DNA from: Gloeomargarita sp. SKYG116
GTDB taxonomy: Bacteria > Cyanobacteriota > Cyanobacteriia > Gloeomargaritales > Gloeomargaritaceae
Length of the DNA: 64,000 nucleotides
Direction of reading: 5' to 3'
NCBI GenBank assembly: GCA_025056115.1
Contig: JANWVM010000004.1
Location: forward strand, 1 to 64,000
The notes beneath the pieces were generated by a model. The model saw only the letters and a program-made list of their open reading frames with translations. It was not told the DNA's origin and ran no database searches. Below are positions 36,030 to 41,771 of this stretch, in pieces. Made by a program: the position numbers and the translations under genes. Position 1 is the stretch's first letter. Every line of letters begins with the position of its first letter.

Positions 36030-36878
36030 ATGCAGTTGCCCCCCTTGCAGTGGTATCCCGGTCACATGGCGCGGGCAGTCAAAGCCCTGAACGAGCACCT
36101 GCAACGGGTGGATGTGGTCATCGAAGTCCGGGACGCCCGCATTCCCGCCAGCAGCACCCATCCCCTATTGCAGCAATTGGCTGCCAATGGCCTAGTGGTG
36201 TTGAACCGGCGCGACCAAATTCCCGCCCTGATTGGGAAGCAGTGGCTACAGGTGCTGAGTACCCCCGAACGACCCGCCATTCTCACTGACGCTCGCTGCG
36301 GCCAGGGACTCGGGCAACTCCGGCGCGCTTTAGCGCAGGTTGGCGAGCAAGTCAATCAACGACGACAACGGCGGGGGATGCTCCCACGAGCTGTACGAGT
36401 AGCAGTGGTGGGTTGTCCCAATGTCGGCAAGTCAGCTTTAATTAATCGCCTGCTCGGACGCCGAGTCACCCCTAGCGCCGCCAAAGCCGGGGTCACACGA
36501 CAATGTCAGTGGGTGCGCATTGGCAGCGATTTGGAATTACTGGATACTCCTGGCATCCTGCCCCCGCGGTTAGACGACCAGCAGGCCGCCGTCCATCTAG
36601 CCATTTGCGATGACATCAGCGAAGCCGTGTACGACCCCTATCTGATTGCCCTAGCGCTCCTAGAACGCCTCTGGCAGCTACCTCCCTCGGCTCGCACTCC
36701 CCCCGACAGTCTCCAACAACGCTACCACCTCGACCCCCAAGCCCACACGCCCGCAAGTTACCTGGCCGCCCTTGCCGAACAAAAATGCCGGGGTGACCTG
36801 CACCGCAGCGCCCAGATGGTCTTGCAGGACTTTCGCCACGGCGTCCTCGGCCAAATTGCCCTGGAATTGCCCCCCTAA
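36030..36878 (+). CDS. rbgA: Ribosome-assembly GTPase RbgA/YlqF
   Basis: This 282-aa circularly permuted GTPase acts late in 50S subunit assembly. The G motifs come in permuted order: G4 as NRRD (usually NKxD), then G1 GCPNVGKSALIN, a G2 threonine in GVTRQCQW and G3 DTPGILPP. The N-terminal WYPGHMARAVK is the family hallmark. The C-terminal ANTAR-like helical domain is present. The Lys-to-Arg change in G4 is conservative. The 3' end overlaps convergent cobW-type gene by 4 nt; infB is divergent upstream. Confidence 0.93.
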   Translation: MQLPPLQWYPGHMARAVKALNEHLQRVDVVIEVRDARIPASSTHPLLQQLAANGLVVLNRRDQIPALIGKQWLQVLSTPERPAILTDARCGQGLGQLRRALAQVGEQVNQRRQRRGMLPRAVRVAVVGCPNVGKSALINRLLGRRVTPSAAKAGVTRQCQWVRIGSDLELLDTPGILPPRLDDQQAAVHLAICDDISEAVYDPYLIALALLERLWQLPPSARTPPDSLQQRYHLDPQAHTPASYLAALAEQKCRGDLHRSAQMVLQDFRHGVLGQIALELPP

Positions 36879-37864
36879 ACCAAACAGGCATGCACATCCC
36901 GCAACAGGGAATCCCGATCCAGGTTTTGCCCAATAAACACCAACTGATTTTGGGGGGGAATGGGCCGGTCATCCACGTCTAAACTGTAACGCTTCCCGCT
37001 CAGTTGAAACACATAGCGCAGCGTACTCCGGTCAAACCATAAAATCCCCTTGGCGCGAAACACATTCGTTGGCAGTTGGTCCGTCAGGAAAAACTGAAAT
37101 TTCTCCAGATTAAAGGGGCGATCACTGGTAAACGATACGGCCACAAAACCATCATTCTCCAGGTGATGGGAATGGTGGTGATGATGGTCGTGGTCATCAT
37201 GGTCGTGGTGGTGGTGCGGTGTGGCCAACAACCGGTCATGGGGCGATTCCACACCCAAAATCAGGGGCAATGGCACCTTTCCGTAGGTCATCGTCAAAAT
37301 TCGGGCGCCGGCTTTCATCTCGCGAATACGTTGGCTCAACTCCTGCACCCGCTCCGGCGTCACCAAATCCACTTTGTTTATCAAGATAATGTCCCCATAG
37401 GTCAGTTGACTCAACGCCGCCTCACTGTTGAATAAATCCGGAGCAAAGGCCGACGCATCCACCACCGTCAAAATGGAATCGAGCCGAGTTAAATCCCGCA
37501 ATTCTGTTCCCAAAAATGTCAAAGCAATGGGCAAGGGATCGGCCACCCCTGTCGTTTCCACGACCAGATAATCCACCCGTTCGCTCTGCTCCAACACCCG
37601 ATAAACCGCATCCACTAAACTGTCATTGATGGTGCAACAGATGCAGCCATTGCTCAGTTCAATCATTCCCTCGTCCACCGAGACGAGCAACTGGCTGTCA
37701 ATGTTAATGTCGCCAAACTCATTCACCAGCACCGCCACCTTCAAATCCTGCCGGTTGTGCAAAATATGGTTGAGCAAGGTCGTTTTGCCGCTGCCCAAAA
37801 ACCCCGTAATGATTGTGACCGGCAACCCCCGTTTCGGCAAGGCCACATCCATTCCTTCGGTCAT
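36875..37864 (-). CDS. CobW/COG0523 GTPase, probable zinc chaperone
   Basis: This 329-aa GTPase of the COG0523 family delivers metal to client proteins. It has Walker A GFLGSGKTTL, the metal-binding CxCC motif at residues 74-77 (NGCICCTI), the Walker B region VVETTGVADP and the base-recognition motif INKVD. A very His- and Asp-rich loop (about 215-235) and a CobW C-terminal domain follow. The palindrome at 37878-37892 in its promoter looks like a Zur/Fur site, so I favour a zinc-homeostasis role over cobalamin. Met5 (37852) is an alternative start. The 3' end overlaps rbgA by 4 nt. Confidence 0.9.
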   Translation of the reverse strand: MTEGMDVALPKRGLPVTIITGFLGSGKTTLLNHILHNRQDLKVAVLVNEFGDINIDSQLLVSVDEGMIELSNGCICCTINDSLVDAVYRVLEQSERVDYLVVETTGVADPLPIALTFLGTELRDLTRLDSILTVVDASAFAPDLFNSEAALSQLTYGDIILINKVDLVTPERVQELSQRIREMKAGARILTMTYGKVPLPLILGVESPHDRLLATPHHHHDHDDHDHHHHHSHHLENDGFVAVSFTSDRPFNLEKFQFFLTDQLPTNVFRAKGILWFDRSTLRYVFQLSGKRYSLDVDDRPIPPQNQLVFIGQNLDRDSLLRDVHACLV

Positions 37865-37877
37865 CGTCCATCACCCA

Positions 37878-37892
37878 TGATAATGATTCTCA
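37878..37892 (-). promoter_or_regulatory. Candidate Zur/Fur operator upstream of the CobW gene
   Basis: On the minus strand the sequence is TGAGAATCATTATCA, a 15-bp palindrome (7-1-7) with a single mismatch. It closely resembles Fur-family sites (TGATAAT-N-ATTATCA), including those bound by Zur. It sits 13 nt upstream of the CobW start codon and covers the predicted -10 (37880-37885). Binding there would block transcription. Which metal regulator acts is inference, based on the COG0523 product. Confidence 0.6.
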
Positions 37893-37908
37893 CCGTATTG
37901 TATGTCTA
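37880..37908 (-). promoter_or_regulatory. Predicted CobW-gene promoter with -35 inside a repeat element
   Basis: On the minus strand TAGACA (37903-37908) and CATTAT (37880-37885) are spaced by exactly 17 nt. The -35 box lies inside the terminal inverted repeat of MITE-like copy B, while the -10 lies inside the candidate Zur/Fur palindrome. The leader would be short, about 10 nt to the first ATG, which makes Met5 (37852) attractive as the real start. Confidence 0.45.
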
Positions 37909-38004
37909 AGCCGCTTCAGTTTGTCAGAGAGATGAAAGACAAACCAAGGGCGGGGCTGCGCCCTGCGACTCCAAGACATGACACGAACAGACGGCTTAGC
38001 CATA
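37901..38004 (+). repeat. MITE-like inverted-repeat element, copy B (104 bp)
   Basis: This copy matches copy A (1401-1504, opposite orientation) at 82 of 104 positions without gaps. The ends TATGTCTAAG and, reversed, TATGGCTAAG match at 9 of 10. The copy lies between the CobW promoter and the end of the CheA-like gene, so it also occupies the region where the chemotaxis transcript should end. A GC-rich centre (GGGCGGGGCTGCGCCC) can form a hairpin. No coding capacity. Confidence 0.78.
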
Positions 38005-38024: not shown

Positions 38025-41000
38025 CTAGTTCGTTGGCGCGACTAGCCGTTCCCCTTGCAATAGACGCCGGGCCGCTTCCAGCAATGTTTCCTCAAGGTAG
38101 GGCTTGGTAAAGTAAGCGCTGGCCCCTAGTTGGATTGCCATTTGCCGGTGCCGCTCGGCCCCGCGCGACGTGAGCATGGCAATCGGCAAGTCCTTCAACT
38201 TCGGGTCGCGACGCACCTTGGAAAGTAATTCCAGCCCGTCCATGCGCGGCATTTCGATATCACAGAAGATCAGGTCGCAGGGCAACCCATCCTGTAATTT
38301 TTCCCAGGCTTCCAGGCCATCCCGCGCTTGCTCGACGCGGTAGCCCTTGTTGCTGAAGGTCATGGACAACATCTCCCGCACGGTAATCGAATCGTCCACA
38401 ATCAGCACCGTCGGTTCATCAGTGGTTTCCGGTTCAATCACCGTTGGCGCTCCCCACAGCGGCATACTGGGCGGCGGTAATTGCCCCAGCGCCAAATCCA
38501 CCAACTCCAGCACATCAGCAATCATCATGATCCGGCCATCCCCTAGGATTGTCGCCCCTGCAATCCCCAGCGGTTTCGGCACAGGGCCGCTCAGTTGTTT
38601 GATCACCACTTCCTGCTCGCTTAGCACCTGGTCCACCTGGAAGGCCACATACCGCCCCAAGCTATGGACGACCACCACCGCCATGCCCTCTTGAGTGCTC
38701 GTGCCATAGATATTGCCCCGCCCTAGGAGCCGCCCGTAGTGCAACAATTCGCTCAACTGCCGCAAGGGGATGCGTTGACCGGCCCACTCTAGCAGCGGTT
38801 TGCCGTCCGGCCCTAAGCTCACCATCTCCGGCGTGACCTCAACCGGCACATCTGCCACCCCATCCATCGGGAATGCCACCCGCGCGTGACTGACCAAGCA
38901 GGGCAACGACTTGGAAATACTCAGCGTCAACGGCAGGCGAATCGTGAAGGTTGTACCCTTGCCGATTTCTGAATCCACGACCACCGTGCCGCGAATTTCT
39001 GCCAGGTTCTTGCGCACCACATCCAGACCCACGCCCCGGCCAGCAAACTCATCTGCCTGGTCCTTGGTGCTAAATCCCGGCATAAACAGCAGTTGATAAA
39101 TATCCTGCTTGCTCATAGCCTGGGCCTGTTCGGCTGTGATCAACCCCCGTTCAATCGCCTTGGCCTTCACCCGGTCCGGGTTGATCCCTACCCCGTCGTC
39201 GCTGACTGTGATCACCGTCTGGTTGCCCTGATAGCCAGCTCGGATTACAATCCGACCGGTTGGCGATTGTCCGGCGGCTGTCCGCTGCGCAGGTGTCCCA
39301 ATCCCATGCACAATGGCGTTGTTCACTAGATGGGTCATCGGGTCCACCAGCTTTTCCAGGATCATCTTGTCAATCAGCGTTTCCCGGCCCTGAATCTCTA
39401 ATTTCACCTGTTTGCCGCACTTGAGGGCCACATTGCGTACTGCCCGCGGCAACCGGTCGGTCACCCGTGAGAAGGGTTCCATCCGGGCGCTATTGATGCC
39501 CTCCTGTAAACCAGTCGTGATTCGTTGGAAACTGCGGGCAACCTCATCAATAGCTTCCACCATGAACTCAATATCCGCTGCTGCTTCCCGCACCCGCAGC
39601 ACCCGCTCCGCAATCTCCTGCGACAAGACATGGAACCCTGTAAACCGGTCCATCTCCAGCGCGTCAAATTCGGCACCCGTGCTGTGTTGCCCCCCTGCCT
39701 CTGCGGCTGGGAAACTGGCTCCGCGAGTAGCGCTCAAGGCCCCTTCGAGCAACGACCGCTCATACAAATCCTGCATCCGTTGACTCAGGTCATTTAACTG
39801 GTGGGCCTGGTGGAGCAAATTCTCCAAAAACTGGCGCAACCGGCTCTGGTCTTCGTTGAGGGTATTCCGAGAAACCACCAGCTCCCCAATCAGGTTGCTC
39901 AAGTTATCCAGTTGTCGCACCGGCACACGCATGGTCTGCTCACCCAAGGCCACTGGGCTACTGCGTTCTTCTGCCGTTACCGGCGCCGGTTCAGCCGTCA
40001 AACCGAGCGAGGGGTCTGGGGTCGCCAGTTGTTGAGCCAGCGTCTCCAAATCTGGTACATCGTCAGGCACATCAACTGTCTCTAGCAACTGTTCCAGGTC
40101 GTTGAGGTCTTCGGCAGAGGTGGCTACTGTCGCCGAGGGTGATTCAGATTCACGCTCGAGCAGCGTCTCCGCATCGGACAAATCGAAATCCCAGTCGTCG
40201 GCCCATTCCGTGGTTGTGGCTGCCGCCAGGTCATCCAAGTTGGTTAATTCCTGCTCGACATCCCAATCGGTCAGTTCAGTCGCCGCTGGTATGGCCGCCA
40301 TATCCGCCTGGTCTGACTGCTCCGGCTGAGCGAACGTCCCTAAGGCTGCCTCTAGCTCTGCCGTCATGTCCCCCAGTAATCCTGCCGTATCCGCCGTCAG
40401 CTCTGTGGATACAGTCGTCGCCTCCTCAACCAGACCAGAAGCGCTTAAGTCAGGGGATTCCAAGTCAGCGAGTGCATCAATCTCACCCAAATCTGGGCCG
40501 GACTCCACGTGCAATTCTTCAAAACCCATCTCAACTTCTGCTGTCCAATCTAATTCTGCTGCCCCTGCAGACGTCGTGTCCTCTTCCCAGGGTGTATCTG
40601 CCGCCAAATTCGTTTCTCCCAGGGGCGCTGGCCTATCTCCGGACTGGCCCAATTCCTCCAAATCTTCCAAGTCTGCCAACTCTGCTTCACCCAAATCCAG
40701 CTCTGCAAACGTGGCTGTCATTTCTGCGGCTAAATCCAGCTCCTCAAAGGTTGTTTCTAGCTCGGTTGTGAGCATTGCTTCAGCGCCTAAATCAACCGGC
40801 AATTCCCCTGCATCAGTCCCTTGCCAATCGTGCCAGTCGGTTAGCTCACTCACTTCATCCAGGTCTGCCTCTGCCAATAACTCTGAGGCTTCTACCGGGG
40901 GCTGGTCTGGGGCTGCTTCTGCATCCAGCGGCTCCATCTGAGACAGGGCTTCTAATGCCGCGGCTTCCGTGTCCATCCGCAATGACCAGTCTTCCGACTC

Positions 41001-41771
41001 AGGCGCCGGTTGTGCTTCCGCCAGCGTGAATAATTCTGCCAATTCCTCCAGAGCCCCCACGTCCTCTACTGGTGGTGTGGCTTCTAGGGGTTGAGCGGCT
41101 GGAGTCGCCCCTGGCTCCAGGGCAAACAACTCAGCGAGAGAAGCCAACTCTTCAGGAGTCTGGGCCGGTGCGTCGGCTGCTGTGGCTGCTGCCTCTTCTG
41201 GAACATCCAAACCAGCAAACAATTCTTCCAGATTCAGTTCTGCCGCCTCCGCCGCCGCAGTGGGTTCAGGAGCGACTTCAGAAGGAGCTGCCATCGTTTC
41301 TGCACTCTCCCAGGTCGCCATGACCGCCTCGCCATGGACGGCAATTTGTAACAGGGCCTCCAGTTGAATAAAAGCCGGTTCATGCGCTAGGACAACCTGC
41401 TGGCCCATTTCAAAGGGCAAATCCCCCGTTTGTTCCACCTGCTGAATTAAGGTTTCCAGCGCCCCCAATCCCTGCCGGAACAAATCAATAACTTCCGAAC
41501 TCAACTGCACAGGTCGTTGCTGCTCACAGTCCCGCAGGATTTTGAAGCAGTCTTCCAAACGCAAGGCCAGTTGCCGCACCCCCTCGAGGTCGAGCATGGC
41601 AGCTCCCCCTTTGATGGAATGGGCCGCGCGAAACCAATCAGCTACCTGCTCCCACGCCTGGAAAGGCTGTTGTTGCTCCAAAACGGCTATCGCCTGCCGC
41701 AGCGTTGCCAAATGCTCTTGGGCCTCCTGGAGGAAGTAGCCGAGAATCCGTTGGTATTGTTCGGCATCCAT
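38025..41771 (-). CDS. CheA-type hybrid histidine kinase (PilL/PixL/HmpE class)
   Basis: This 1248-aa kinase is the core of a pilus-motility chemosensory array. It has an Hpt domain with His51 (AAHSIKGGAAML), a very acidic Ala-, Glu- and Leu-rich low-complexity region (about 160-620), and a dimerisation segment (LSNLIGELVVSRNTL). A CheA-type ATPase follows, with HLVNNAIVHGIGTP, VSDDGVGINPDRV and GRGVGLDVVRKNL, then a CheW-like domain. A C-terminal receiver has its Asp in LIFCDIEMPRMDG. It begins 18 nt below the MCP gene, with GGAG 7 nt before ATG. It is the last gene of REC-CheW-MCP-CheA. Which response (phototaxis or other) it serves is not visible. Confidence 0.92.
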   Translation of the reverse strand: MDAEQYQRILGYFLQEAQEHLATLRQAIAVLEQQQPFQAWEQVADWFRAAHSIKGGAAMLDLEGVRQLALRLEDCFKILRDCEQQRPVQLSSEVIDLFRQGLGALETLIQQVEQTGDLPFEMGQQVVLAHEPAFIQLEALLQIAVHGEAVMATWESAETMAAPSEVAPEPTAAAEAAELNLEELFAGLDVPEEAAATAADAPAQTPEELASLAELFALEPGATPAAQPLEATPPVEDVGALEELAELFTLAEAQPAPESEDWSLRMDTEAAALEALSQMEPLDAEAAPDQPPVEASELLAEADLDEVSELTDWHDWQGTDAGELPVDLGAEAMLTTELETTFEELDLAAEMTATFAELDLGEAELADLEDLEELGQSGDRPAPLGETNLAADTPWEEDTTSAGAAELDWTAEVEMGFEELHVESGPDLGEIDALADLESPDLSASGLVEEATTVSTELTADTAGLLGDMTAELEAALGTFAQPEQSDQADMAAIPAATELTDWDVEQELTNLDDLAAATTTEWADDWDFDLSDAETLLERESESPSATVATSAEDLNDLEQLLETVDVPDDVPDLETLAQQLATPDPSLGLTAEPAPVTAEERSSPVALGEQTMRVPVRQLDNLSNLIGELVVSRNTLNEDQSRLRQFLENLLHQAHQLNDLSQRMQDLYERSLLEGALSATRGASFPAAEAGGQHSTGAEFDALEMDRFTGFHVLSQEIAERVLRVREAAADIEFMVEAIDEVARSFQRITTGLQEGINSARMEPFSRVTDRLPRAVRNVALKCGKQVKLEIQGRETLIDKMILEKLVDPMTHLVNNAIVHGIGTPAQRTAAGQSPTGRIVIRAGYQGNQTVITVSDDGVGINPDRVKAKAIERGLITAEQAQAMSKQDIYQLLFMPGFSTKDQADEFAGRGVGLDVVRKNLAEIRGTVVVDSEIGKGTTFTIRLPLTLSISKSLPCLVSHARVAFPMDGVADVPVEVTPEMVSLGPDGKPLLEWAGQRIPLRQLSELLHYGRLLGRGNIYGTSTQEGMAVVVVHSLGRYVAFQVDQVLSEQEVVIKQLSGPVPKPLGIAGATILGDGRIMMIADVLELVDLALGQLPPPSMPLWGAPTVIEPETTDEPTVLIVDDSITVREMLSMTFSNKGYRVEQARDGLEAWEKLQDGLPCDLIFCDIEMPRMDGLELLSKVRRDPKLKDLPIAMLTSRGAERHRQMAIQLGASAYFTKPYLEETLLEAARRLLQGERLVAPTN

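Follow-up and report, generated by a model that had tools for sequence, protein, structure and literature searches.

A COG0523 gene and its upstream region

The window, meaning the whole stretch of 64,000 nucleotides analysed here (G000:C203:1-64000), comes from the 2.37-Mb genome, in 258 contigs, of a Gloeomargarita-type cyanobacterium and was compared with six genomes of the same genus (G001-G006). Two neighbouring minus-strand genes are of concern, a histidine kinase gene and, downstream of it, a gene for a CobW-like GTPase; the features in and around the gap between them are listed in Table 1. The GTPase matches the Pfam models cobW (PF02492, 191.7 bits) and CobW_C (PF07683, 78.5 bits), each above its cut-off, and carries the CICC motif (of the CxCC type) and the His-rich loop that an earlier note on this DNA had described. 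It scores under the NCBIfam cut-offs for true CobW (TIGR02475, 190.2 against 332.1 bits) and for ZigA (221.3 against 600). Domains, motifs and sub-cut-off scores together indicate a COG0523 protein and not the CobW of the cobalamin pathway. Genes of this type are predicted to lie downstream of Zur sites in cyanobacteria (PMC2770081), and the Zur regulon described for Anabaena includes some of them (PMC6103462, PMC10957091).

Table 1. Coordinates of genes, predicted regulatory sites and mobile-element parts in the window
Feature	Position	Strand	Basis or remark
COG0523-type G3E GTPase gene (CobW-like, 329 aa)	36875..37864	-	CICC motif, His-rich loop, Pfam domains
Zur-type operator (predicted)	37878..37892	.	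plus strand TGATAATGATTCTCA; towards gene TGAGAATCATTATCA; best site in genome, conserved in relatives
CATTAT, candidate -10 of the earlier note (4/6)	37880..37885	-	sequence match; inside operator
TACAAT, alternative candidate -10 (5/6)	37897..37902	-	its TA is the target duplication; adjoins operator in 5/6 relatives
TA target-site duplication, gene-proximal	37901..37902	.	empty-site comparison, family ends
IS630/Tc1-type miniature inverted-repeat element, 100 bp	37903..38002	.	44 family matches, 30-copy alignment, partner elements L194 and L200
TAGACA, candidate -35 of the earlier note (5/6)	37903..37908	-	sequence match; last six bases of element; in 1/30 copies
CTGACA, alternative candidate -35 (5/6)	37922..37927	-	19 nt from TACAAT; exact in 19/27 recognised copy ends
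Terminator-like hairpin and T-rich tail within element	37937..37964	-	reads towards COG0523 gene
TA target-site duplication, kinase side	38003..38004	.	empty-site comparison
CheA-type hybrid histidine kinase gene (Hpt, HATPase, CheW, receiver), upstream neighbour	38025..41771	-	Pfam

A Zur-type box and its distribution

The predicted operator is palindromic (7-1-7, a single pair being mismatched) and lies 13 nt ahead of the ATG at 37864, just as had been noted before. When the genome is scanned with TGATAATNATTATCA this site ranks best, with one mismatch, and with TGAKAATNATTMTCA it is the sole perfect match, followed by two further sites at one mismatch; the reversed TGAKAATNATTMTCA, used as a control pattern, has no site within one mismatch in this genome. 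Over all seven genomes TGAKAATNATTMTCA has 30 sites with no more than one mismatch and the reversed control has 8, and with such a background a single box site requires support. One site with a single mismatch (C181:10135) belongs to the His-rich znuA-type gene of the window's genome. No zinc gene was recognised beside C203:72436 (one mismatch, at the end of an ORF which, by its look, we take to be signal-peptidase-like) or beside C247:52025.

Two sets of comparisons bear on the age and the nature of the box. The first is the locus itself: in each of the six relatives the box comes immediately after the end of the kinase gene, differs from the degenerate pattern at no more than one position and precedes the COG0523 gene, and the mobile element is absent there. 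The palindrome is therefore present in every one of these element-free relatives of the same gene order, the comparison that the earlier note had proposed. The second is the znuA-type family (PF01297), of which each of the seven genomes encodes two proteins, one of them His-rich. The His-rich genes have an upstream box with 0-2 mismatches in 7/7 genomes, and their non-His-rich paralogues in 0/7, where the best sites within 450 bp have 4-5 mismatches. On these two grounds we regard the operator as ancestral and very probably as a binding site of Zur, and the earlier placing of the CobW-like protein in a zinc (Zur-type) regulon is supported by the pattern across genomes. It is very unlikely that the site is a Fur (iron) box instead. 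Fur and Zur boxes do look alike within the family, and two other Fur-family proteins are encoded besides the candidate described next, one of them with its best PDB matches to Fur, but the split between znuA-type genes and paralogues speaks for zinc, and so do the COG0523 genes of Anabaena, which are reported as Zur targets (PMC10957091, PMC6103462).

The three Fur-family proteins of the window's genome are L071, L072 and L073. The candidate regulator is L072, which has 131 aa and two CxxC pairs. Of the PDB chains with a named function, the zinc regulator FurB (2o03) gives its highest score, 66.1 bits, and only 7ne9 (94.3 bits), which is named by family alone, ranks above it; the best matches of L071 and L073 are Fur and PerR, respectively. 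All three stay below the curated NCBIfam cut-offs, and the Zur model gives L072 38.8 of 167 bits, less than the 82.8 from a Fur model. Given the FurB match on one side and these scores on the other, L072 is likely rather than proven to be the Zur of this genome.

Similar boxes also occur outside the genus. Among 76 usable loci (out of 79) of COG0523 genes in wider cyanobacteria, 20 have a box with at most 2 mismatches within 300 bp upstream and 56 do not; the controls gave 0/76 downstream and 0/76 for the reversed pattern. In G007, which is of the same family, the one copy examined has no box, the best site in 400 bp (L045/L075) having 6 mismatches. In Anabaena sp. PCC 7120, boxes of the same 7-1-7 kind are described before genes for zinc-binding proteins and COG0523 genes in the Zur regulon (znuABC; alr1197, all1751, all4722) (PMC6103462). 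The difference is that here one putative target promoter bears a mobile-element insertion that touches its core.

Other boxes in the genus may be mentioned here. In L034 and L036, CAATGAGAATCATTATCATTG forms a 10-1-10 palindrome by eye, and the CAAT of TACAAT may thus be conserved as the outer arm of a longer operator. Upstream of the znuA-type genes (L187-L193), most promoters have another box-like stretch, aaacgattatcatt, no more than about 25 bp beyond the first, again by eye. A perfect Zur-type box lies at about 1501-1515 in L216 and L224, from G001 and G003, before the gene for a small Cys-containing protein, presumably DsrE-like. There the box occupies the spacer and -10 of a putative TTGACG-17-TATCAT pair (spacing by eye), which gives an example in this genus of a predicted promoter covered by a Zur box; no such pair is seen at the COG0523 gene. 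Taken together, these sites would extend a Zur regulon (COG0523 gene, znuA-type gene and, in two relatives, the small DsrE-like protein) to the genus Gloeomargarita. This genus contains the closest known relatives of plastids. A copy of the element family is also found about 150 bp upstream of this box in G001. MITEs near other Zur boxes were considered as a pattern, but the G001 case stands by itself, a case in G005 fell inside an ORF and was dropped, and the number was too small for a claim.

A TA-flanked element inserted at the promoter edge

The element has imperfectly inverted ends (TGTCTAAGCCG / CGGCTTAGCCA) and no gene inside, and an Rfam search of the whole window returned two tRNAs only, with no match within the element. 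The window's genome holds 44 matches to the family at E<=10 (43 at E<=0.001) and G001 holds 42, while G003 and G006 have none. The 7, 20 and 10 matches in G002, G004 and G005 are solely to a hairpin core of 27-31 bp. This core (37947-37975; like GGGCGGGGCTGCGCCCTGCGACC) recurs there in repeats with different surroundings (L156-L179), so that it seems to be common to several small-repeat families. The 30 aligned family copies terminate in TATAGCTAAGC. A second copy in the window, at 1401-1499, is 81% complementary to the first and sits between tRNA genes at 1143-1226 and 1614-1684.

As to its origin, 2 of the 11 transposase loci examined (L194 and L200) have an IS630-type (DDE_3) transposase between like ends. 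ISY100 of Synechocystis, an IS630/Tc1-mariner element with inverted ends, inserts at TA and duplicates it (PMC2170065), and the elements here resemble it in target, duplication, ends and transposase type. The ends of the window family share only the outer ~10-11 bp with L194 and L200. In both of these the transposase is split between two frames, overlapping or adjacent, which could reflect frameshifted expression or decay.

The relatives provide empty sites for comparison, in 6/6 cases from other species and not from strains. If the element and one TA are taken out of the window sequence, ...CCTACAATCTACAATACGGTGAGAATC is left, and the G001 counterpart reads ...CCTACACTACAATGAGAATC; from this comparison the gene-side TA is the TA of TACAAT. 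In 5/6 relatives the last T of TACAAT is shared with the box (G003 reads CTCAAT), whereas the window has five extra bases between TACAAT and the box. The distance from the kinase stop to the box is a few tens of bases in the relatives, and the insertion has put ~100 bp between the kinase gene and the promoter core while leaving the operator untouched. The box and TACAAT thus predate the element. A mobile element does sit where a -35 would lie, but it did not build the promoter.

The insertion can be read as a clear case from nature of an event type that is already known, in which the operator was kept and the DNA upstream of it replaced. Correia elements of Neisseria target TA. These and other promoter-bearing MITEs are small inverted repeats beside genes, with sigma-70-like promoter sequence in their ends (PMC10969869); the window element is similar, being TA-flanked and ending in a candidate sigma-70-like half. 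Correia elements carry tested promoters, whereas the promoter of the window element is a sequence match only, and this copy has lost the TATA of its family (it reads CATA). That the ends of MITEs and IS elements can add promoter parts is already known from the same source (PMC10969869). A literature search of one collection, on mobile elements or zinc in Gloeomargarita and on MITEs together with Zur, gave nothing on this site among the matches listed.

Candidate promoters and the possible effect of the insertion

The palindrome and the repeat are not due to chance; the -35/-10 pair is little more than chance would give. The earlier note had taken TAGACA, in the terminal repeat of the element, and CATTAT, in the operator, as the two halves of a promoter, and its letters and distances are correct: the spacer of 17 nt is 37902-37886 on the minus strand. 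It is doubtful, however, that this exact sigma-70 pair is the promoter, with its -10 within the operator and a start ~10 nt before the ATG. Under the rule of the tool used, it is the sole pair of at least 9/12 with a spacing of 16-18 nt in the region (one such pair, where shuffles of the 221-bp region contain 0.2 on average), and an element-borne -35 of at least 5/6 exactly 17 nt before CATTAT arises in just 0.6% of shuffled ends and in 1/30 copies. On the other hand, CATTAT is only a 4/6 match and is replaced by GATTAT or GGTTAT in two relatives (L037, L035), TAGACA is private to the window copy, two bases away from the TAGCTA of the family, the pair was chosen post hoc among several, and the leader would be very short. 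CTGACA-19-TACAAT scores higher (10/12, with a long spacer), as does TAGACA-20-TATCAT (10/12, against 9/12 for TAGACA-17-CATTAT), and the emptied site already contains TAGACC-17-TACAAT and TCTACA-16-TATCAT at 9/12 each. TAGACA-17-CATTAT is thus one of several weak candidate promoters, and a weakly supported one.

The ease with which such pairs arise can be put into numbers. With the flank fixed and the element end shuffled by mononucleotides, 72% of the sequences yield at least one pair of >=9/12 at 16-18 nt, and 25 of the 29 other copies give some 9/12 pair when their ends are placed on the window flank. The count is lower if the -35 has to be element-borne: a match of >=5/6 at 16-18 nt from any -10 occurs in 6.3% of shuffles and in 4/30 copies. 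The pairs in the relatives score 8-9/12, and with no better than this the ancestral promoter may do without any -35.

The position of the element is certain, and its use as a -35 is plausible. If TACAAT is the -10, the spacer and the -35 are wholly element DNA; if it is CATTAT, this applies to the -35 only. The explanation we favour, and hold to be reasonably probable as a whole, is that an IS630/Tc1-type MITE invaded an ancestral Zur-repressed COG0523 promoter, giving a hybrid promoter with an element-borne -35 and reduced read-through. The comparison with the relatives covers its first step, in which operator and TACAAT are ancestral and the element inserted between TA dinucleotides at the promoter edge. 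Zur loaded with Zn would then block RNA polymerase at the operator, as at znuA. The polymerase would use TACAAT (or CATTAT) as -10 and make its -35 contacts on element DNA (CTGACA or TAGACA), so that the present promoter would be a hybrid of mobile and ancestral parts. The hairpin of the element would in addition cut read-through from the kinase gene, and the COG0523 gene would consequently lean more on its own Zur-controlled start.

It is also possible, though unlikely, that the element is neutral, and that the ancestral core (TACAAT and operator) is independent of a -35 and works as before. In the relatives TACAAT pairs with no -35 above 4/6, candidates at the 9/12 level are common in shuffles, as given above, and the element ends show no bias to face gene starts (11/25 for the CTGACA end and 10/26 for the other end, by a crude ORF-based call on 30 copies, 3 copies inside ORFs being excluded). 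Against this, everything that would serve TACAAT as spacer and -35 region has been replaced, which is seldom without effect, and CTGACA and TAGACA are both 5/6 matches. The missing bias also argues against the word "recruited" in the earlier note, which implies use or selection. Since the ends do not prefer gene starts, an outward promoter function of the family is treated here as hypothetical.

Another reading, quite unlikely in our view, makes termination the main effect, with the hairpin and its T-rich tail stopping read-through from the kinase gene. One terminator-like site is found on the gene strand, at 37964-37947, against a mean of 0.0 in shuffles; it lies between the kinase stop and the COG0523 promoter, and no such hairpin is visible in the short gap of the relatives. 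The predicted structure is a modest one, though, with a stem of 6 pairs, an interrupted T tail, and a z of only -1.93 for the fold of the whole element.

A bolder form of the hybrid-promoter explanation sees the family as a portable half-promoter, made of CTGACA, 17 nt and a TATA that joins the element's own TA to the duplicated target TA. The end towards CTGACA is recognised in 27/30 copies; in these TATA follows 17 nt on in 16/27, and both motifs are present in 12/27. Each insertion would set a -35 and the first four -10 bases before whatever follows, and here the target TA would itself have opened a -10 linked to the operator, so that a single insertion would have swapped the upstream part of a promoter under zinc control and kept the control by the repressor. 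We offer this reading, with both of these details, tentatively and as rather improbable. In hybrid promoters of the IS6/IS26 family, the IS end supplies the -35 and resident DNA the -10; the resident half differs here in that it keeps a repressor operator. Should the present -35 indeed come from the element, the locus would be a natural, datable rewiring of the strength of a metal-controlled promoter with its control unbroken, and six element-free orthologous promoters are available for comparison.
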